Assembly: GCF_000152805.1 (NCBI RefSeq)
Contig: NZ_CH902578.1
Coordinates: forward strand, 3,459,906 to 3,523,905
From: Maritimibacter alkaliphilus HTCC2654
GTDB taxonomy: Bacteria > Pseudomonadota > Alphaproteobacteria > Rhodobacterales > Rhodobacteraceae
Direction: 5' to 3'
DNA: 64,000 nucleotides
The position numbers and the translations under genes were made by a program. Within the stretch, counting starts at the first letter, position 1. Each line of letters opens with the position of its first letter. The notes beneath the pieces were generated by a model. The model did not search any database, was not told the DNA's origin, and saw nothing but the letters and a program-made list of their open reading frames with translations. Positions 10,422 to 30,107 of the stretch are shown in pieces.

Positions 10422-10693
10422 ACCGCGTTCCTCTTCTCTGTTTCCGGAAACCTCGGGGGTGTGGGGGCATAACTCGTCTGTCGTTTGCAGCGTGCATTGT
10501 GAACCACCCCGAGGCTGCAGTCACCGTTATTTTTCTGTAGACCGAGAGGTTAGCCGGATAGCGCCAGAAAAGCACTTGGAACGTAGCTTTCGTTTGGCGG
10601 TATGGTGGACTAAGGTAGGAAGACGCTGCACGTCTCTAGCCGTGCCATCAGTGCTTTGGCGCCACAAGAAAGCAGAACAGAAGGTATGGGCGA
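10422..10693. other. priA to methyltransferase intergenic region, left end of the element
   Basis: 272 bp without a convincing gene. It holds the left 14-bp repeat (10456-10469) and then less GC-rich sequence that probably contains the left recombination half-site and the methyltransferase promoter. Reading the minus strand, the first bases (CACCCCCGAGGTTTC) resemble the host intergenic palindrome tails seen at 30070-30102. Confidence 0.5.
10456..10469 (+). repeat. left attachment-site repeat
   Basis: GGGGTGTGGGGGCA, identical to 18395-18408. Here it is followed by TAACTC, so the palindrome arm present at the right copy is missing, as expected for an insertion that split the hairpin. Confidence 0.6.
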
Positions 10694-11923
10694 ATGAACC
10701 AGCTCTCCATCTTTGATCAGGAGAAGTTCGCGGCGACGGCTGAGACCTTCATCGAAGACCTTCGGGCCTTCGATGACTTCGGCCAGCGCACAATGACTGA
10801 GACCGTGGAAGGTATCCCTTACCTGATCAACGAGTTCTGGACGGCAGGGCAACGCCAAGCTCACTCGATCCACGAGGTTTCTTACCGTGCCTGCTTCAAG
10901 GCACAGTTGCCCGAGTTCTTCATCAAGCGTCTCACTAAGCCGGGGGGCGTGGTATTCGACCCGTTCATGGGGCGGGGCACAACGCCCGTGCAGGCGGCGC
11001 TAATGGGCCGTCAGGCCTTTGGCAATGACATCAACCCGTTGTCGGTCCTACTGACCCGTCCCCGGCTGCGCCCGATCACTTTGCAGGCGGTTGCAACGGC
11101 GCTGCAAACCGTTGATTGGTCTCGGGGTGATATTGAGCGCGAAGACTTGCTCGCCTTCTACCACCCCGAAACGCTCAAGAAGCTGGAGGGCCTGCGCCTA
11201 TGGCTGGCTGAACGCGCGCCGCTTGGCAGCGAGAGCGTTGACCCGGTGGCCGACTGGATTCGGATGGTGGCGATCAATCGCCTCTCGGGTCATTCGCCGG
11301 GCTTCTTCTCTGGCCGGTCGATGCCGCCGAACCAAGCAGTGTCAGTCAAGGCACAACTCAAGATCAACGAGAAACTAGGCGTATCGCCGCCAGAGCGCGA
11401 CGTGGTTGCCGTGATACTCAAGAAGTCGAGAACGCTGCTTAAGAACGGCTGTGCCCCTAGCCAAGTGCGTTCAAGCCTTCACACCGGCGCGGCGTGGGAC
11501 TTGCGCGGCGTCGCTGATGCTTCGGTCGATCTAACTGTCACCTCACCCCCATTCCTCGACATCGTGCACTATGCCGCCGACAACTGGCTGCGCTGCTGGT
11601 TTGCAGGCATCGATCCGGAAACCGTCGCCATCGATATGCATCGCACCGAGGAGGCGTGGACCGCGATGGTGCACCGCGTCCTAGCGGAACAGGCCCGCAT
11701 CTTGCGCTCCGGTGGCTACGTCGCCTTCGAGGTGGGTGAGGTGCGTAATGGCAAGGTGCTGCTCGAGCGCCTCGTCTGGAAGGCGGCGGAGGGCTTACCG
11801 TTCAACCGGCTGGGCGTGATGGTGAACGACCAGGAGTTCACAAAAACTGCCAATTGCTGGGGCGTGGCCAACGGCGCGAAGGGCACGAATACGAACCGGA
11901 TCGTGCTCTTGCAACGTCACTAG
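10694..11923 (+). CDS. DNA methyltransferase (N4-cytosine/N6-adenine class)
   Basis: A 409-residue DNA aminomethyltransferase, presumably the modification enzyme of the restriction system next to it. The SAM-binding motif VFDPFMGRGTT is at residues 87-97 followed by NDINPLS, and the catalytic motif TSPPF is at 283-287. The SPPF form is more typical of N4-cytosine than N6-adenine enzymes. Motif I precedes motif IV by almost 190 residues, so the target-recognition region probably lies between them (alpha-like order). The ATG at 10694 has AAGG about 10 bp upstream. Its TAG shares bases with the stop of the convergent endonuclease gene. Target sequence unknown. Confidence 0.88.
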   Translation: MNQLSIFDQEKFAATAETFIEDLRAFDDFGQRTMTETVEGIPYLINEFWTAGQRQAHSIHEVSYRACFKAQLPEFFIKRLTKPGGVVFDPFMGRGTTPVQAALMGRQAFGNDINPLSVLLTRPRLRPITLQAVATALQTVDWSRGDIEREDLLAFYHPETLKKLEGLRLWLAERAPLGSESVDPVADWIRMVAINRLSGHSPGFFSGRSMPPNQAVSVKAQLKINEKLGVSPPERDVVAVILKKSRTLLKNGCAPSQVRSSLHTGAAWDLRGVADASVDLTVTSPPFLDIVHYAADNWLRCWFAGIDPETVAIDMHRTEEAWTAMVHRVLAEQARILRSGGYVAFEVGEVRNGKVLLERLVWKAAEGLPFNRLGVMVNDQEFTKTANCWGVANGAKGTNTNRIVLLQRH

Positions 11924-12516
11924 GGGGTCTGCCAGCTTGAATGATTTCCGCCCGCAAGTAGTTTGTGCGAGGTTGAAGCTTCCAGCCTGATATTCATCGG
12001 TGAAGCGGGATCGAGAAAGTCGAGTCTGAACCCCTCCACGATTGCCCCGCCATTCTGGTATAGCACCGTAGCGACAGCGTGTGCAGGCGGGTTTTCGACG
12101 ATGCCATCTTCGATGAGTCTGCGCATTTTTAGTGGCGAACTGGTCAGGACGCGTCGATTGCCGTCGTTCGGATTCCAGTCGGACGTCGCCTTGAACTCCA
12201 GAAAGTGCCGCTGCCCCTGAATTGTCAATACGGTGTCCGGGTAGCCTTTGCCGGGGGCAATTTCAATTCTGAATGCGTTTGTGAAAGCGGGCGCAATCTT
12301 GGTCAGAAATGCCGCAGCAGCCTTGTTGCCCAAAGATTGATTTGAGCCTGTGAAGTCTGGCATCTGCCAGCCGATGTAGCCTTGAGATTGAATGGCCTGA
12401 CTGATTGCCGCTTGCGCGGCGGCTGCAATGTTGGCGTCCCAAGAAGAAATTAGCGATCGAGCTTGCAGGCCTGAGTATTCCTGCAACTCCTCCAGATAGT
12501 CATCGAAACGCGGCAC
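11920..12516 (-). CDS. PD-(D/E)XK restriction endonuclease (predicted)
   Basis: A 198-residue protein with a nuclease core: Pro93-Asp94 in GYPD, a beta turn, then Glu107-Phe-Lys109 in FLEFKA, a textbook PD...ExK spacing. The N-terminal half is helical. It is convergent with the methyltransferase and shares the CTAG stop bases, so it is the likely restriction subunit. The start is a GTG at 12516 with AAGGAG at a good distance. I do not recognise a specific enzyme family or recognition sequence. Codon use is less GC-biased than the chromosome. Confidence 0.7.
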   Translation of the reverse strand: MPRFDDYLEELQEYSGLQARSLISSWDANIAAAAQAAISQAIQSQGYIGWQMPDFTGSNQSLGNKAAAAFLTKIAPAFTNAFRIEIAPGKGYPDTVLTIQGQRHFLEFKATSDWNPNDGNRRVLTSSPLKMRRLIEDGIVENPPAHAVATVLYQNGGAIVEGFRLDFLDPASPMNIRLEASTSHKLLAGGNHSSWQTP

Positions 12517-12582
12517 GGCCTGCTCCTTGATCCGTGCCAGAAATCATGGCACTTCCTCCTAGGTAGCAGGGAGAAGTGTTTG

Positions 12583-13065
12583 ATGGAAAGACGTTTTAAA
12601 CTCCGCTGGGATGAGGAAGAGCTTGCCCGCGCGTTCCGGGTGACACCCAAGGATGTCCGCGAATACCTGACTGATGGTCGGCGCGTCTCGTTCATCATCG
12701 AGCGGCGTCTAATGTGGGAGAATCCCGGCTGGAAGCTGGCCCCGTCAGAGGGCGCTGGCTATGACCTGCTCGATCCTGAGGGTGGTATGTGGGAGGTGCG
12801 TTCGATCACGCGGCAAGGTGTATACTTTAATCCAAGCAACCAAGTTGGGTCCGGTCGCGCTTTTAATGAAGAAGGTTTTCAAGCCAAACTGGCAGGCATT
12901 AAAGGCTTCATTCTCTCAGACATCGTTGGATTTCCAGAGGTAGATGTATTTGTTGTGCCTGTAGCAAACGTCCTACGCTGGCACCAAAATAGAGATCTAG
13001 GTGCTAATGCCAAAGTATCTCGGACGAAGTTCTTCAATCAACTCGCAGGGGATATTGATTTTTGA
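12583..13065 (+). CDS. hypothetical protein, possible second nuclease-like subunit of the restriction module
   Basis: A 160-residue protein divergent from the endonuclease, sharing a 66-bp promoter region with it. The ATG at 12583 follows GGGAGAAG at a usable spacing; the TTG at 12580 is a poorer choice. The N-terminal part (ELARAFRVTPKDVREYL) looks like a small helix-turn-helix. The middle GYDLLDPEGGMWEVRS has an acidic residue followed about 10 later by E-V-R, compatible with a degenerate PD-(D/E)XK core in which Lys is replaced by Arg. The C-terminus has alternating strands (VDVFVVPVANVLRW). GC content is low. Function unproven; it could be a control or accessory protein. Confidence 0.6.
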   Translation: MERRFKLRWDEEELARAFRVTPKDVREYLTDGRRVSFIIERRLMWENPGWKLAPSEGAGYDLLDPEGGMWEVRSITRQGVYFNPSNQVGSGRAFNEEGFQAKLAGIKGFILSDIVGFPEVDVFVVPVANVLRWHQNRDLGANAKVSRTKFFNQLAGDIDF

Positions 13066-13119
13066 ACTTTAGATGACCTGTTCAATGTGTCGACTGAACA
13101 ACATGAGAATACCAAAAGT

Positions 13120-13141
13120 CCGATGCGGTGTTCCGCATCGG
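13120..13141. terminator. perfect 9-bp hairpin between convergent genes
   Basis: CCGATGCGG-TGTT-CCGCATCGG. The minus-strand side continues ACTTTTGG, the plus side lacks a T run. It lies between the 160-residue gene (+) and the 119-residue gene (-) and may serve as a terminator, best for leftward transcription. Confidence 0.5.
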
Positions 13142-13175
13142 CCCTGATAGATCGCTCGATTGAAGTTGTGACGCC

Positions 13176-13535
13176 TTAGGCGCTGGTAACGGGGGTGTCG
13201 TTGGCGGCATCGCTGCCGCCAACGGGTTTCTTTTTCGCCAGTTTGGCTTCGGCGCGGGCGGCCATCTCCGCGTCAGCCTTCGCGGCTTTCAACAACCCTT
13301 CGTGAACGAGGAGCTGCAGTGCAACTAGACTGAGGGTGGGAACGAGTGCGCTGATGATCTGACTACGCAGCTTTTCATCCACATTCGGAAGAGCGGCGAG
13401 GGTCGTTTCGCCGATTTCCTTGCGGGCTGCGGCTTCTTTCTTGGCTCTTTTTGTGGCCACTTTGGCTCGTTGTCGATCGACACGCGCTTTCATACGTGCT
13501 GTCGAGGCATCATCTTTGTCGATATCTTCAAACAT
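13176..13535 (-). CDS. small charged hypothetical protein of the element
   Basis: A 119-residue protein with a strongly basic, coiled-coil-like N-terminus (MKARVDRQRAKVATKRAKK), a middle helix with hydrophobic residues and a lysine/alanine-rich C-terminus ending PVTSA. The ATG at 13535 has GGAGA upstream. It follows the relaxase remnant on the same strand, where mobilization accessory proteins are often encoded, but no family is recognised. The C-terminal codons contain an 11-bp inverted repeat. Confidence 0.6.
   Translation of the reverse strand: MFEDIDKDDASTARMKARVDRQRAKVATKRAKKEAAARKEIGETTLAALPNVDEKLRSQIISALVPTLSLVALQLLVHEGLLKAAKADAEMAARAEAKLAKKKPVGGSDAANDTPVTSA
13199..13235 (+). terminator. 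intrinsic terminator inside the 3' end of a convergent gene
   Basis: CGTTGGCGGCA-TCGC-TGCCGCCAACG is a perfect 11-bp stem with a 4-base loop, followed on the plus strand by GGTTTCTTTTT. It would stop rightward transcription from the 160-residue gene, yet it encodes the last residues of the 119-residue protein on the other strand. Confidence 0.55.
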
Positions 13536-13617
13536 CAGATGTCTCCGTGATTAAGTGTGTGAGCGATCTGGAGGGGAGTTGATGTCGTTTGAGATGGCCC
13601 CAAGATAATAAATGCTA

Positions 13618-14963
13618 TCACTCGTCGATTTCCTTGCCGCCTTTGCGCGAAGTCTCCGATTTCATGATTGTTTTCGCTGTCAGCTTTGCGTCCGCGAAGT
13701 CGTTCGCCTCGCCCCGGACCCGTTTTTCGATGATCGGCAGAGAAATGCGCGGGACAGCTGCATGCATCGCGTGCAGGAAGGCTTCGGCTTTTCGCGCCAG
13801 GCGTTCCGCGGCTGCCATCCGCTTGGCAGTCTCGTTCTCCGCAGTCCGTTTCGTAGAGGTGACAGAGACGCGAACACGCGCCCCAGTTTGCGGCGAATGC
13901 GCGCCGTCAGAGGCGCCTCGTCTTCTTTCGCCTCTCCGACTGTGCCCTGTGATGCGGCCACGTCGAGAAGGGTTTCGACCTGATTGTTGACGGCCTCTCG
14001 TTCATCCAACCGCGCGGCTTTCGCGTCTGCTGTCACCTGAGCCTTGCGAAAGGCAGATTCGCTTTCGGCGGTGGCGCGTTCCCGGGTCTCTATTTCTGCT
14101 TCGCGCTGCCGTTGCGCGGCCTCACGTCCGGCGAGCGCATGTTCGCGCTCCTTGAGGTCTTTCGCCCGTTTTCGAAGCTGTGCCGCTTCGGCTTCGCGCC
14201 AGACGTGACCGCATTGGTTCTCTCGATACTCGGGCTGGTCCCTGCCGCCTTCTTCGGCCCGGCGCCGCTCCTCTGACCGCCGCTGGCCGCGAGCCAAATT
14301 GAGAGGCGCAAAGTTTTCCGCGATATCGGTTTGTGCGTCTTCGTAGCTCTTGAGCAGCTCGTAGGCTGATGGCACCAGAAGGTGCTGCCAACCGCGCCGT
14401 TTCGAGGTCTTTTCAGCCCAAGGGGCGATCATCGCGTGGATATGGGGCGCGGTTTCGTCGAAATCCGCCCGCGCCGTTATCACCGCGTCGCCGAAGCGCT
14501 CCTTCAGCTACGCGATCGAAGTTTCGACGAAGGCGTCTTCCCTTGCCGACCGCGCCGCGTTGATGAGCAGCGAAGGGTCGTCGAACGCGTTGAACCACTC
14601 TTTGTTCGCGGTGATGATGACCTCGCGGAGCGGACCTTGTTTCGACGCCTTCCACGGATCCTGAGGCCCGCCATCGGCGCGGTCTGCCCAGTCTTTTTTG
14701 CGGCCGAGCGCCTCCAAGGCTTCCAGCTCTTCAGCGAAGTTCGACAGTCGTGCGAGTTCATACCTCTCATTGAACCGTTCGCGCCAATCGGGTTCGCCGA
14801 TCAGGTTTAGACGGTTCGCCATCGCCATGCCCGACTCGCAGTGCTTCGATCCTCGCCCCTTGCGCTCCTCGTGCAAGGCGTAGCCCGCGATGTCGTGGGG
14901 AAACATCGGCTTGAAGCGCAGCACGATGGGAAACTGGCGTTCGGAATTGGCGGGCTGTGCCAT
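13618..14963 (-). pseudogene. MobV/Pre-type plasmid mobilization relaxase, interrupted
   Basis: Reads as one relaxase of about 450 residues broken twice. The first part (14963-14511, MAQPANSERQF...) has its own AGGAGG site and ends at an amber codon TAG at 14510-14508. The same frame continues without a gap into DAVITARADFDETAPHIH, where DETAPHIH carries the HxH metal site of MobV-type proteins. A charged coiled coil (EREHALAGREAAQRQREAE) follows. Near 13855-13870 the coding pattern shifts by one base: the natural-looking C-terminus (KRMAAAERLARKAEAFLHA ... GGKEIDE) lies in the next frame and stops at 13618. Unless stop and shift are bypassed, no full relaxase is made. Confidence 0.72.
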
Positions 14964-14968
14964 GAGGG

Positions 14969-15042
14969 CCTCCTGATCTGGTCGATCAGGAGGTCGGTTC
15001 GTTTCCTCGAAGAGAGAAACGGACGCCTCCGCAGGTCTGCGG
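14969..15042. repeat. cluster of three inverted repeats upstream of the relaxase
   Basis: CCTCCTGATC-TGGTC-GATCAGGAGG (14969-14993) is a perfect 10-bp stem that includes the relaxase ribosome-binding site. CGTTTC...GAAACG spans 15000-15021 and CCGCAG-GT-CTGCGG spans 15029-15042. The cluster could be oriT, an operator, or an RNA hairpin masking the ribosome site. Confidence 0.5.
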
Positions 15043-15201
15043 GGGATCTACTCACTAGCAAAGTGACAGACGGCCCTTCGGTTCTTTCTGTCATTTTCGT
15101 TCGGCAGGGGAAACCCCTGCACCCCGGCACGGCTTGCGCGGCGCTCGAGATGCGCTCCGCCTCTCGAACTCTCCCGGAGCCTCCAGCCGGGCCAAGGGTC
15201 A

Positions 15202-15259
15202 TCGTTCCGCACTCCCCCTTGGATCCCCCTGCGCCCGCGGGAGCGTCGTTCCGCACTCC
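15202..15259. repeat. 14-bp direct repeat in the element's non-coding region
   Basis: TCGTTCCGCACTCC occurs at 15202-15215 and again at 15246-15259, 44 bp apart start to start, in a C-rich stretch. Role unknown; possibly protein-binding sites of the transfer origin. Confidence 0.5.
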
Positions 15260-15455
15260 TCCCCCGAACCCCCACCTGCTCGCGTTCCCCACGCGGGGTC
15301 GAGAGGCTTTCCCCCTCTCGACGCTCTCTCCCTGTGCGCTTGAGGCGCGAGGCGGGCGCAGTCGCGCGCGGCCCTGTCGTGACGCGCGCGCGGCTGACCC
15401 GCTTGGAGTTTAGGGCAGATGGGCGTGCGTCTTCTTTCAACGATTGGAGACGACA

Positions 15456-15944
15456 ATGCTCGACAATACCACCCAAAAACCGAAGCCAGTGAAACACTGG
15501 CAGACGGTGCTTCAGCCGGGGCACATCGTGATGTTCCGGTTTCCGGTGCGCCTGACCGATGACCCGCCGAAGATCCGACCGTGCCTTGTCCTCGACGTGG
15601 TCCGTCGCGGCGGCGAACACTTCGCGGTGCTCGCCTATAACACCAAGGTACAGACGAACGCCAACTGCGGTCATGAAGTCGCGGTCAGTGGCGAGACCCT
15701 GTTGAAAGTGCTGAAGCAGCGCAAGTCCACGCGCTTCGTCGGCGCGCGGCGGATCACCGTTTCGCTCGATCACCACGGCTTCGCATGCAATCGCGATGGG
15801 ACACCGATCCTCAGCGAATTGGTCGGCACCTCCGTCGATCGGATGCTCGCGGTCCGGGCCCACATCAACGCGATCGCGGACATCAAGAGGGAACGCGACG
15901 CCAAAACCGGTCGCCGGAAACCGAAGCAACTCTCCCTGTTCTGA
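15456..15944 (+). CDS. PemK/MazF-like protein
   Basis: A 162-residue protein. Residues about 19-50 contain the signature of the PemK/MazF (CcdB-like SH3) fold: QPGHIVMFRFP, then KIRPCLVLDV. In that family the fold is usually an mRNA interferase toxin. The C-terminal part (RRITVSLDHHGFA, then a basic tail) is longer than typical MazF. The ATG at 15456 has GGAG at a good spacing; the TTG at 15444 is less likely. No obvious antitoxin gene precedes it; a small helical protein follows. Toxin activity is inference. Confidence 0.5.
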   Translation: MLDNTTQKPKPVKHWQTVLQPGHIVMFRFPVRLTDDPPKIRPCLVLDVVRRGGEHFAVLAYNTKVQTNANCGHEVAVSGETLLKVLKQRKSTRFVGARRITVSLDHHGFACNRDGTPILSELVGTSVDRMLAVRAHINAIADIKRERDAKTGRRKPKQLSLF

Positions 15945-16021
15945 AGCTCACCCACTCGACCCGGCCCCTGTTCACGAGGGCCGGGATCGACCGGCTGCCT
16001 TCTGAAAGCAAAGGAACCAGA

Positions 16022-16417
16022 ATGAACACTCAGAAACACAAAATCGAATTCCACTACGAACCACCCGTTCGCGAGGTCGACAACCTCGAAGCGATGATCG
16101 CCGACGCAGCACGAGATGCCCGCGATGGTCTGCGTGGCCTGCATGCACTCAGCTCACGGGCGATCCGCGACAATGAGCTGAACATCAAAACGCTGACCGA
16201 CATCATCGAGCAAAAGCGCATCCTGACCGACCAGTTCCGTCACACGATCCGGCTGATCCTCGCCAATATCGCGCAATCGCATCCCGAGACCGACGAAGAT
16301 CCGGTCGCGGACACCGTGCGCCGAGATCTGCTCAGCGCGAGCTACCTCTCGCAGCGCGTCAGCGATCTGATCGAAGCCGAACAAATGATCGGGAAGAAGC
16401 GCCAGTCACGCAACTGA
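16022..16417 (+). CDS. hypothetical helical protein downstream of the PemK-like gene
   Basis: A 131-residue, mostly alpha-helical soluble protein (AMIADAARDARDGLRGLHAL, DIIEQKRILTDQFRHTIRLI). The ATG at 16022 follows AAAGGAACCAG. It is 77 bp after the PemK-like gene on the same strand and probably co-transcribed. It has no recognised domain, and an antitoxin role cannot be claimed. Confidence 0.6.
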   Translation: MNTQKHKIEFHYEPPVREVDNLEAMIADAARDARDGLRGLHALSSRAIRDNELNIKTLTDIIEQKRILTDQFRHTIRLILANIAQSHPETDEDPVADTVRRDLLSASYLSQRVSDLIEAEQMIGKKRQSRN

Positions 16418-16587
16418 CCGATCCAAAGAAACGCGGCTGTCTTTCCGCGTCAGGACGCGTCGGCACCATCCTTTCTGCTCCCCCAGCCGGTGCGTCCGAA
16501 CTTTTCTCCAAAAATTTTTTCACTCTGAGAAACGTTCCACCCATCTCCTGTCCAGTTGTGAGCCACATGGACGAAGGAGAACAAGAA

Positions 16588-16770
16588 ATGTCACGCGTTA
16601 CTTTGCAAGCCGCCAACCAAAATCCGGGCGGAGAAACGAACCTTGAGACCAACCTACTGGGGTTGATTGAACTGCTCGCGCAGGCGCAGGTGCGCGCCGA
16701 GACGCGCCCTTCCAGCGCATACGGTCGCGTGGCTGCTAACGACAACACCCCAATTTACAAGAAAGGCTGA
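16588..16770 (+). CDS. small hypothetical protein before the recombinase
   Basis: A 60-residue protein starting MSRVTLQAANQN at an ATG preceded by AAGGAGAACAAGA. It ends 3 bp before the recombinase start, so the two form an operon. It has one amphipathic helix (LETNLLGLIELLAQAQ) and a polar tail. It could be a small directionality or control factor by position only. Confidence 0.5.
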   Translation: MSRVTLQAANQNPGGETNLETNLLGLIELLAQAQVRAETRPSSAYGRVAANDNTPIYKKG

Positions 16771-16773
16771 ACC

Positions 16774-18390
16774 ATGACCAAGCGCGCTGTCATTTACGCC
16801 CGCTATTCGACTGGCAAGCAAAAGCAGACGTCCATCGCTGATCAGGTGGCGATGTGCGAGCGTCATTGCGAAAACGCCGGCTGGGAAGTTGTTGGGGTGT
16901 TTAGCGACAGCGAGAAGACTGGCAAACGCACCAAGCGGCCTGGACTTCAGGAAATGATTGAGATGTTGCGCTGCCGCAAAGCCGACGTCGTTCTTATCGA
17001 AGCCGTCGACCGCTTGCACCGCTCCGTGGTCAATGCACTGTCCTACTTCGAGATTACTACCTTCCGAGGGATCGAGCTTTACTCAGTCTCTGAAGGGCAA
17101 CAGGACTTTATCAAGCTCCTGTTCAATGCCCTTGGCGCTCAGTATTATTCGGATAGCGTCGCGGTTCACACGCGACGCGCTCTCGAGTCCCTCGTGCGTA
17201 AACAAGGACGAACGCACGGAATGGCCTTCGGCTATCGCAAAAAAGACGGCGAGACAGGTCTAAACCGCGAGCCGGACCCTGAAACCGCTTGGATCGTGAC
17301 GCGCATTTTTGAAGAAACCGCCGCAGGCCATTCGGCCGAACAGATTGCCCAGCGGCTCAATCAGGAAGGCATCCCAGCGCCAAAGGGTGGGGATTGGTAT
17401 ACATCGACCTTGCGCGGAAACAAGCAGCGCGGCGATGGCATCCTGCGCAATCGAATCTACATTGGCGAGGTCACCTACGGCGCTACGAAGTCCAGCTTCG
17501 ATCCCGAAACTGGCAAGAAATGGGTGGAAGCGACGCCGGACCAAGCGACCACCCTTCAGGTTGAGGATCTGCGGATCATTCCGCAGCCGCTCTGGGACGC
17601 AGCCCACACTCAACTCGAAGCCACCGCTCGTCAGGTCGAGACCATTGGAAATGCTTCAGCCGCGCATCGCACCAAATATCTCTTGTCCGGGCTCTTGGTT
17701 TGCGGCTGTTGCGGTCGCCCTTTCACAATGCAAGCTCAAGGGAAATATTATTGCCGGAACAAGAAGCTCTGTGGCAATCGGACTCCGGTTTTGCGGGAAG
17801 CAATTGAACAGCGTGTGTTCGCTAGCCTGCGCGACCTCTTCCTGACTCCGGAACTCGAAGCAAAGTTCGACGCAACGATCGCTGCTGAACGTCGGAAAAT
17901 GGCGTCCGCATCTGGATCGAACGAGCTTCGAACACTCATCCGTCGCAAAGCCGAAGCAGAAAAGGCCATCACGCAGATCCTGCGCGCGATCGAAAGCGGC
18001 ACGACATTCAAAAGCCTCCTTGAGCGAGCCCAATCCCTTGAGGACGAGATCGCCAGACTCGAACTCCAGATCAACAAGCTGGAGGCAGTGCGGCGCAGTG
18101 CTGAAGCTATGCCAACCCGAGCAGCACCCGTTTACGCCGCCGCTATAGAACGGATGGAGACGCTACTGGCCGATCCTGATTTTGTGCACCAGGCGAGTGG
18201 TCATTTGGCTCAACTGATCCGAAGTATCAGGCTCACGCCGGATCATACAGCGCAAGACGGAATGTCTGCCGAGGTTCATATGGACCTCGGCAGTTGGGTT
18301 TTGGGGGCCGGATATTCAGCAGAGATCGCCGCCCGGTTCTCAAACAATCCGCAAATGACGATTGAGGTGGGGGCAGCGCCCCCCACTTGA
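16774..18390 (+). CDS. serine recombinase (large serine integrase type)
   Basis: A 538-residue recombinase likely to integrate and excise the element. The N-terminal resolvase domain contains YARYST with the nucleophile Ser12, plus EAVDRLHRS. A recombinase domain follows (FGYRKKDGETG ... ILRNRIYIGEVTYG), then a zinc ribbon (CGCCGRPF ... YYCRNKKLCGN) and a coiled coil at about residues 370-450. This matches large serine integrases, which use short asymmetric sites. Its last codons (VGAAPPT) are encoded by a copy of the GTGGGGGCAGCGCC palindrome, and it ends next to the right attachment repeat. Confidence 0.92.
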   Translation: MTKRAVIYARYSTGKQKQTSIADQVAMCERHCENAGWEVVGVFSDSEKTGKRTKRPGLQEMIEMLRCRKADVVLIEAVDRLHRSVVNALSYFEITTFRGIELYSVSEGQQDFIKLLFNALGAQYYSDSVAVHTRRALESLVRKQGRTHGMAFGYRKKDGETGLNREPDPETAWIVTRIFEETAAGHSAEQIAQRLNQEGIPAPKGGDWYTSTLRGNKQRGDGILRNRIYIGEVTYGATKSSFDPETGKKWVEATPDQATTLQVEDLRIIPQPLWDAAHTQLEATARQVETIGNASAAHRTKYLLSGLLVCGCCGRPFTMQAQGKYYCRNKKLCGNRTPVLREAIEQRVFASLRDLFLTPELEAKFDATIAAERRKMASASGSNELRTLIRRKAEAEKAITQILRAIESGTTFKSLLERAQSLEDEIARLELQINKLEAVRRSAEAMPTRAAPVYAAAIERMETLLADPDFVHQASGHLAQLIRSIRLTPDHTAQDGMSAEVHMDLGSWVLGAGYSAEIAARFSNNPQMTIEVGAAPPT

Positions 18391-18418
18391 AGCAGGGGTG
18401 TGGGGGCAGCGCCCCCAC
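18367..18418. repeat. tandem palindromic repeat at the right end of the element
   Basis: GTGGGGGCAGCGCCCCCCAC (18367-18386) and GTGGGGGCAGCGCCCCCAC (18400-18418) are near-identical self-complementary units. The second looks like the host intergenic hairpin; the first lies in the recombinase 3' end. They could act as a terminator for both convergent genes. Confidence 0.7.
18395..18408 (+). repeat. right attachment-site repeat
   Basis: GGGGTGTGGGGGCA, identical to the left copy at 10456-10469. Here the palindrome is complete on the right (GCGCCCCCAC), so this junction retains the host right half. Confidence 0.6.
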
Positions 18419-29970: not shown

Positions 29971-30070
29971 GCGGGCTTGCGCCCGCGCAGGTCTTGCGCC
30001 GCCCCGCCTTCGGCGGGTCGTCGCGATGGGGGGAGGCCAGCCTCCCCCGTCTCGCCCCTCGGGGCGAGAC
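29971..30070. repeat. four consecutive extragenic hairpins
   Basis: GCGGGC/GCCCGC (29971-29986), CCCGCC-TTC-GGCGGG (30003-30017), GGGGGAGGC-CA-GCCTCCCCC (30029-30048) and GTCTCGCCCC-TC-GGGGCGAGAC (30049-30070). They fill the gap between convergent genes and are followed by CCTCCGAGGTATTTGAAGAC, a tail I recognise from Rhodobacteraceae intergenic palindromes. They probably end transcription from both sides. Confidence 0.75.
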
Positions 30071-30107
30071 TCCCCCTCCGAGGTATTTGAAGACCGAAGA
30101 AGCCGGA

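Follow-up and report, generated by a model that had tools for sequence, protein, structure and literature searches.

The question raised by this locus is how an 8-kb block of accessory genes came to lie within an intergenic palindrome of Maritimibacter alkaliphilus HTCC2654, and whether the enzyme that it encodes uses such palindromes as a regular target. The block is located in a DNA stretch of 64,000 nucleotides (the window, i.e., the whole stretch analysed, to which positions refer unless stated otherwise), between priA and a sulphur-transport gene (PF04143); these flanks agree with the priA and yeeE named in an original prediction, which had been made from the sequence alone. On comparison with related genomes, cited below by our numbers (G001 and so on), we consider the block to be an integrated element. 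Its large serine recombinase would join the attachment site of the element (attP) to a repeated extragenic hairpin, and its right end would be the first of two adjacent hairpins (hairpin 1); we give this reading a probability of roughly 0.87. On this reading, the element is integrative and was probably once mobilizable. The features at its two ends are as follows, attL and attR being the left and right junction sites.

10441..10469, + strand: left junction (attL side), host repeat tail (..AAACCTCGGGGGTG) and half a hairpin, ending after GTGGGGGCA; the same tail and hairpin are present in the element-free G001
10463-10468, + strand: core GGGGGC at the left junction
10470..10502, + strand: left end of the element, with a TAA stop codon (10470-10472) and the left attP arm (CTCGTCTGTCGTTTG)
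18367..18386, + strand: hairpin 1, the putative attR, with core GGGGGC at 18369-18374; geometry common to relatives
18400..18418, + strand: hairpin 2, putatively an adjoining host repeat, and the right end according to the original prediction; at this junction, G006 has hairpins in tandem that are separated by a similar spacer

The 14-base sequence GGGGTGTGGGGGCA that had been reported at both ends is present at the quoted places (10456-10469 and 18395-18408), and, as described there, the left copy is truncated after GGGGGCA and the right copy runs on into the complete hairpin GTGGGGGCAGCGCCCCCAC. When two mismatches were allowed, at least two matches were also obtained in 12 of 100 shuffles; the repeat by itself is thus weak evidence, and the case is carried by comparison with relatives. 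The right end has two hairpins, not one: an extra complete hairpin (GTGGGGGCAGCGCCCCCCAC, 18367-18386), absent from the original prediction, stands 33 bases before the second, and the recombinase reading frame terminates within it. The full 19-base hairpin has a single exact match across the genome. The proposed likeness of the palindrome to 30070-30102 is fair when judged by eye, the same CCGAGGTATTT-type tail being present there. Single hairpins have a stable predicted folding, and no RNA family was detected at the hairpins at the gathering threshold (window 8000-32000). The G+C content of the block is mostly below that of its flanks. With hairpin 1 as the right end, the element measures 7,906 bases from core to core.

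The junction between priA and the sulphur-transport gene was searched in seven other genomes of the genus (G001-G007), G004 being left out because its priA is split between contigs. In G001, whose PriA is 91% identical, a single hairpin without any element lies between conserved flanks. One hairpin was found in G007, three tandem hairpins with a CTTGAA spacer resembling that of the window in G006, and other palindromes in G003; no hairpin was found at the G005 junction, and in G002 the sulphur-transport gene is not within 1.5 kb of priA. The recombinase search gave no match in G003, G006, or G007; the matches in G001, G002, G004, and G005 were weak and distant, except for a 69%-identical terminal piece in G002. 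These results indicate that the element is not core among the seven genomes and that hairpins are common at this junction. The terminal piece in G002 belongs to a decayed copy with a geometry resembling that of the window: its right end enters one hairpin without a spacer, a half hairpin with the repeat tail is located 1,522 bases leftward, and joining the two ends rebuilds one hairpin.

Of 394 genomes drawn from across the family, 30, among them the genome of the window itself, gave a recombinase match at E 1e-70 or better, and the nearest other recombinase was 48% identical (G300, genus Thioclava). With a threshold of E 1e-60, a match was obtained in 11 of 16 Thioclava genomes. In 11 copies there (one in G300, four including a partial one in G441, and two each in G443, G451, and G453), the recombinase frame leads directly into GGGGGC[G/T]CTGCCCCC, followed by the CCCCCGGGATATTT tail, in a single orientation; together with the window, 12 of 12 read-through recombinase frames enter the hairpin directly and at the same base. 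For three more distantly related recombinases the hairpin lies beyond the stop codon, by 235 bases in G448, 235 in G444, and about 130 in G118, beside a shared arm close to CGACAATTAACGGTCGGGCA. Right-hand junctions within the same palindrome thus number 16 (12 read-through, the decayed G002 copy, and G448, G444, and G118), a count that excludes G440, where a hairpin lies about 130 bases beyond a partial recombinase with no recognisable arm. At 27 other loci from the 394-genome draw, including G136, G014, and two incomplete ones and leaving out two further G367 matches, no hairpin was found in the downstream sequence at hand, which was shorter than 400 bases for 13 of them; the matches of G367 and G267 are incomplete.

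After removal of seven poor rows (short, gappy, or with a very long branch) from a first tree, a second tree was obtained with 23 of the 30 rows, in which 14 hairpin-user rows together with G136, G447, and G014 form one fully supported side of 17 rows. Because the hairpin-user label needs four changes on this tree, the users are not strictly one clade. Pairwise comparison of 14 right flanks detected shared stretches of only 41-132 bases, adjoining or within the repeats. Seven Thioclava recombinases are 92-100% identical to that of G300 and have mutually different right flanks, so that by the measure of multi-targeting (at least 90% identity and more than three different target genes) these copies would count as multi-targeting, with a clustering that differs from that in PMC10083194. 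A search of genome contigs for close recombinase relatives gave one unrelated partial match, and 314 plasmid records had a recombinase match, none with at least 60% identity.

Seven read-through elements could be delimited at both ends: that of the window (7,906 bases) and six Thioclava copies (6,150 to 17,631 bases). The same holds for the elements of G118 (16,553 bases) and G448 (8,460 bases). The 16 Thioclava genomes were searched with the joined flanks of the six Thioclava elements, and for four of these a match in sister species runs on across the junction: G443a (in G453 and G449), G443b (in G449, G453, and G451), G451a (in G447), and G451b. The match of G451b is clean in G443; in G449 its left side is shorter and the stem differs, in G447 the repeat differs, and in G453 the junction is unaligned. 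For the G300 site, G448 has the left flank and an intact repeat and then diverges, and the only site found for G441a is a diverged one. No duplicated bases are present at the aligned empty-site junctions. Serine recombinases do not duplicate their target, and what the two ends of the element share is a short core, GGGGGC(A), as in a conservative exchange; the bases common to both ends number nine in the window (GTGGGGGCA) and six in G300 (GGGGGC). A 14-base target duplication was rejected, since the host hairpins share that sequence mutually and the aligned empty sites have no duplicated bases; of the claim of a 14-bp target repeat, the repeat stands, and its role as target repeat is not supported.

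Joining of the ends also closes the recombinase frame. In all seven intact read-through elements with both ends, a stop codon (TAA or TAG) immediately follows the core once the ends are joined, giving a C-terminus of ..EVGA in the window and ..RQGA in the six others, while the integrated frames extend 4 to 105 residues further. In the window, the joined frame is closed at ..EVGA-stop with 534 amino acids versus 538 when integrated, the final four residues and the stop codon being encoded past the core, and the joined site has a dyad centred on GGGG^GC. The best dyad axis is GG^GC in nine of nine joined attP sites (shuffle p from 0 of 2000 to 0.02). In serine integrases, strand exchange takes place at the dyad centre of attP, from which the crossover would be placed at GG.

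On this basis, the attP of a circular element would recombine with copies of the GGGGGCAGCGCCCCC hairpin, or with GGGGGC[G/T]CTGCCCCC in the Thioclava relatives, by exchange at the GG step of GGGGGC, about four bases from the hairpin centre and without duplication of the target, and each end would retain part of the hairpin. With the attP core on the stop codon of the recombinase, the circular form would encode a protein ending in ..GA-stop, whereas in the integrated copy the frame would continue into the target, which would then encode the tail of the enzyme. For the window, this would make hairpin 1 the right end and hairpin 2 a host repeat, and the joined flanks would form two tandem hairpins. 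The anatomy, the insertions at other hairpins, the uninterrupted empty sites, and the attP dyads can be read directly from the sequence; recombinase activity, circle formation, transfer, and the exact crossover are inferred from it. That the position of attP on the stop codon acts as a switch, in which the circle form ends at ..GA and the hairpin-encoded tail of the integrated form alters stability or the direction of recombination, is a doubtful extension; if it were true, integration itself would change the behaviour of the recombinase.

Several observations weigh against this reading. For five read-through copies no left end could be located, in some cases for want of sequence. G447 (with 891 bases seen past the stop codon), G136, and G014 have no clean hairpin though they belong to the fully supported side of 17 rows, and left ends of G014 and G136 were sought without any being found. 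The G002 remnant has no recognisable left attP arm, and its frame is not stopped after the core, making it the sole exception to that rule. Among the nine attP dyads, that of the window has the least support (p 0.02), and for attB, the host attachment site, no significant dyad centred on the crossover was obtained (best axis variable, shuffle p 0.06 to 0.92). Because the relaxase gene of the window is broken, present mobility is doubtful. Finally, a join that leaves a single hairpin fits G001 better than the join at hairpin 1 does.

This last point leads to the question of which hairpin is the right end. The same element and recombinase could end at hairpin 2 with 14 shared bases, hairpin 1 and the spacer then being part of the element, as the original prediction had implied in stating that the joined flanks restore one hairpin. 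The 14-base match exceeds the 9-base match available with hairpin 1, and the join at hairpin 2 yields a single hairpin closely resembling the G001 junction; with hairpin 1 as the end, the joined flanks would instead be two tandem hairpins, for which G006 provides the parallel (hairpins in tandem at this junction, with a spacer resembling that of the window). Against hairpin 2, the related recombinase end in G002 enters a single hairpin without a spacer, all 12 read-through copies meet the hairpin at the recombinase end just as hairpin 1 is met in the window, and only hairpin 1 is compatible with a stop codon placed directly after the core. We regard an end at hairpin 2 as unlikely, and the comparison of junctions places hairpin 1 far ahead of it as the probable right end.

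The recombinase might also recognise a folded hairpin (cruciform) instead of double-stranded sequence. The target is palindromic in 16 of 16 junctions and single hairpins fold stably in prediction, as such recognition would have it, but the probable crossover lies about four bases off the hairpin axis and always in GGGGGC, the attP dyad is ordinary, and the single orientation of all 11 Thioclava copies relative to the repeat tail suggests that sequence is read, so that we hold recognition of the fold to be very unlikely. Because the hairpin axis lies about four bases from the crossover and attB has no significant dyad, the palindrome may serve as a repeated sequence and not as a shape. That the hairpins are coincidental, frequent repeats between genes into which a recombinase inserts loosely, is close to refuted: the repeats are common and three members of the clade are not evidently located at one, but at roughly one exact hairpin per 50-60 kb, chance cannot account for the entry of all 12 read-through frames at one and the same hairpin base, and the 27 other loci have none in the downstream sequence at hand.

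Targets for recombination at hairpins are plentiful. The 15-base heart of the hairpin (GGGGGCAGCGCCCCC) has 18 copies in the genome of the window and 72 copies in eight genomes of its genus, versus one for a reversed control pattern, and GGGGGC[G/T]CTGCCCCC has 726 copies in the 16 Thioclava genomes versus none for the control; in the richer genomes, the density of the exact hairpin is roughly one per 50-60 kb. These counts and the 16 junctions support the original prediction that an integrase splits intergenic hairpins and has many such targets per genome. Within Thioclava, four genomes are poor in the repeat: G445 and G450, which gave no recombinase match at E 1e-60, and G446 and G452, where the matches are only 37-38% identical. 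Since the richer G449, G442, and G454 are also without a match at this threshold, a link between repeat abundance and recombinase presence is only a hint.

Further observations concern the surroundings of the Thioclava copies. A segment of about 12.8 kb between inverted repeat copies is in opposite orientation in G451 (contig 1, 1329500-1344000) and G453 (contig 64, 482500-497500), and the inversion is seen between Thioclava species with and without the element, which suggests that it is repeat-mediated. G443a and G451a have a common left flank over about 20 kb and different right flanks; with the inverted, repeat-bounded segment located there, they may be one insertion, not two. In addition, the right flank of copy G441b (G441, contig 18, 4722-6725) matches the left flank of the G300 copy (contig 1, 54814-55059) in reverse, and the two elements seem to have entered the same intergenic region in opposite orientations.

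Parts of this behaviour are known from other systems. Close copies of multi-targeting large serine recombinases integrate beside many different genes, and such enzymes may have evolved to target sequences present at several sites (PMC10083194). The present recombinase is like them in its serine recombinase domains and many insertion places, but it targets an extragenic palindrome that is GC-rich and has GGGGGC as its core, whereas the example given there has a TT core and T- and A-rich ends; DUF4368, found in 63% of that clade and not obligatory, was not found by profile scan in the recombinase of the window. The terms palindrom and Rhodobacter are absent from the main text of PMC10083194. Repeated extragenic palindromes are the regular target of IS110/IS1111 insertion sequences, as described in PMC11187229 (IS621, ISPpu10, and ISPa11 target REP sequences). 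Those are small, with a DEDD transposase and a guide RNA, in contrast to the large serine recombinase and elements of 6-18 kb here, and no DEDD transposase was found among the element frames scanned. An attachment site within a coding frame, by which integration alters the C-terminus of a protein, is described for integration-dependent immunity of mycobacteriophages (PMC9262239; for proteins with changed ends, see also PMC4557955). That system involves a repressor, tyrosine integrases, and tRNA targets (PMC9262239), unlike the stop codon of the recombinase itself and the hairpin in our case. The combination of integrase, relaxase gene, and cargo, with no conjugation apparatus recognised among the frames scanned, is like that of integrative and mobilizable elements, from which the element of the window differs in its broken relaxase.

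Multi-targeting serine recombinases and palindrome-targeting are each known, and their combination was not found reported: a search of the open-access literature, with terms matched literally, gave no report of a serine recombinase with extragenic palindromes as regular targets. If our reading is right, these enzymes would form a clade of serine recombinases whose natural target is repeated, rich in G+C, and well defined, and nature would offer many attP/attB pairs for them. Islands that carry defence genes would then have numerous harmless places for integration between the genes of one genome, which would explain how they find them, and extragenic palindromes would receive large elements besides small insertion sequences.

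The genes between the two ends are as follows.

10694..11923, + strand: Type II DNA methyltransferase (PDLC03325, E 1.2e-225, full length; PF01555)
11920..12516, - strand: 198-aa protein adjoining the methyltransferase on the opposite strand; no family in profile scans
12580..13065, + strand: Type II restriction enzyme (PDLC03550, E 2.2e-98)
13680..14963, - strand: MobV-like relaxase gene with an in-frame stop (14508-14510), in pieces 14508-14963 and 13680-14483
15444..16417, + strand: two small frames (15444-15944 and 16022-16417); no convincing family in profile scans
16774..18390, + strand: large serine recombinase (PF00239, PF07508, and PF13408, all above cut-off)

In the recombinase, the resolvase catalytic domain (PF00239) is followed by the Recombinase (PF07508) and zinc-ribbon (PF13408) domains. 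The two relaxase pieces, of which the second matches NF041497 with E 1.1e-5, under the curated cut-off, align to the relaxase of the G300 element, whose frame is open (PF01076), at residues 9-122 and 157-347. As judged from the profile scans, the cargo is accessory, type II restriction-modification with a broken MobV-like relaxase, in agreement with the wholly accessory content that had been predicted. The G300 element has an OLD-like nuclease (PF20469 and PF13304) and an AIPR protein (PF10592) at 13024-16769 of its locus, which is suggestive of phage defence in place of the restriction-modification of the window. A second large serine recombinase, 33% identical to the first, is encoded in the genome of the window (contig 4, 3009463-3010857); its frame enters a tRNA-Met gene and ends in ..GGLEPPTPAL, and this is a further recombinase frame that crosses its own likely attachment site.

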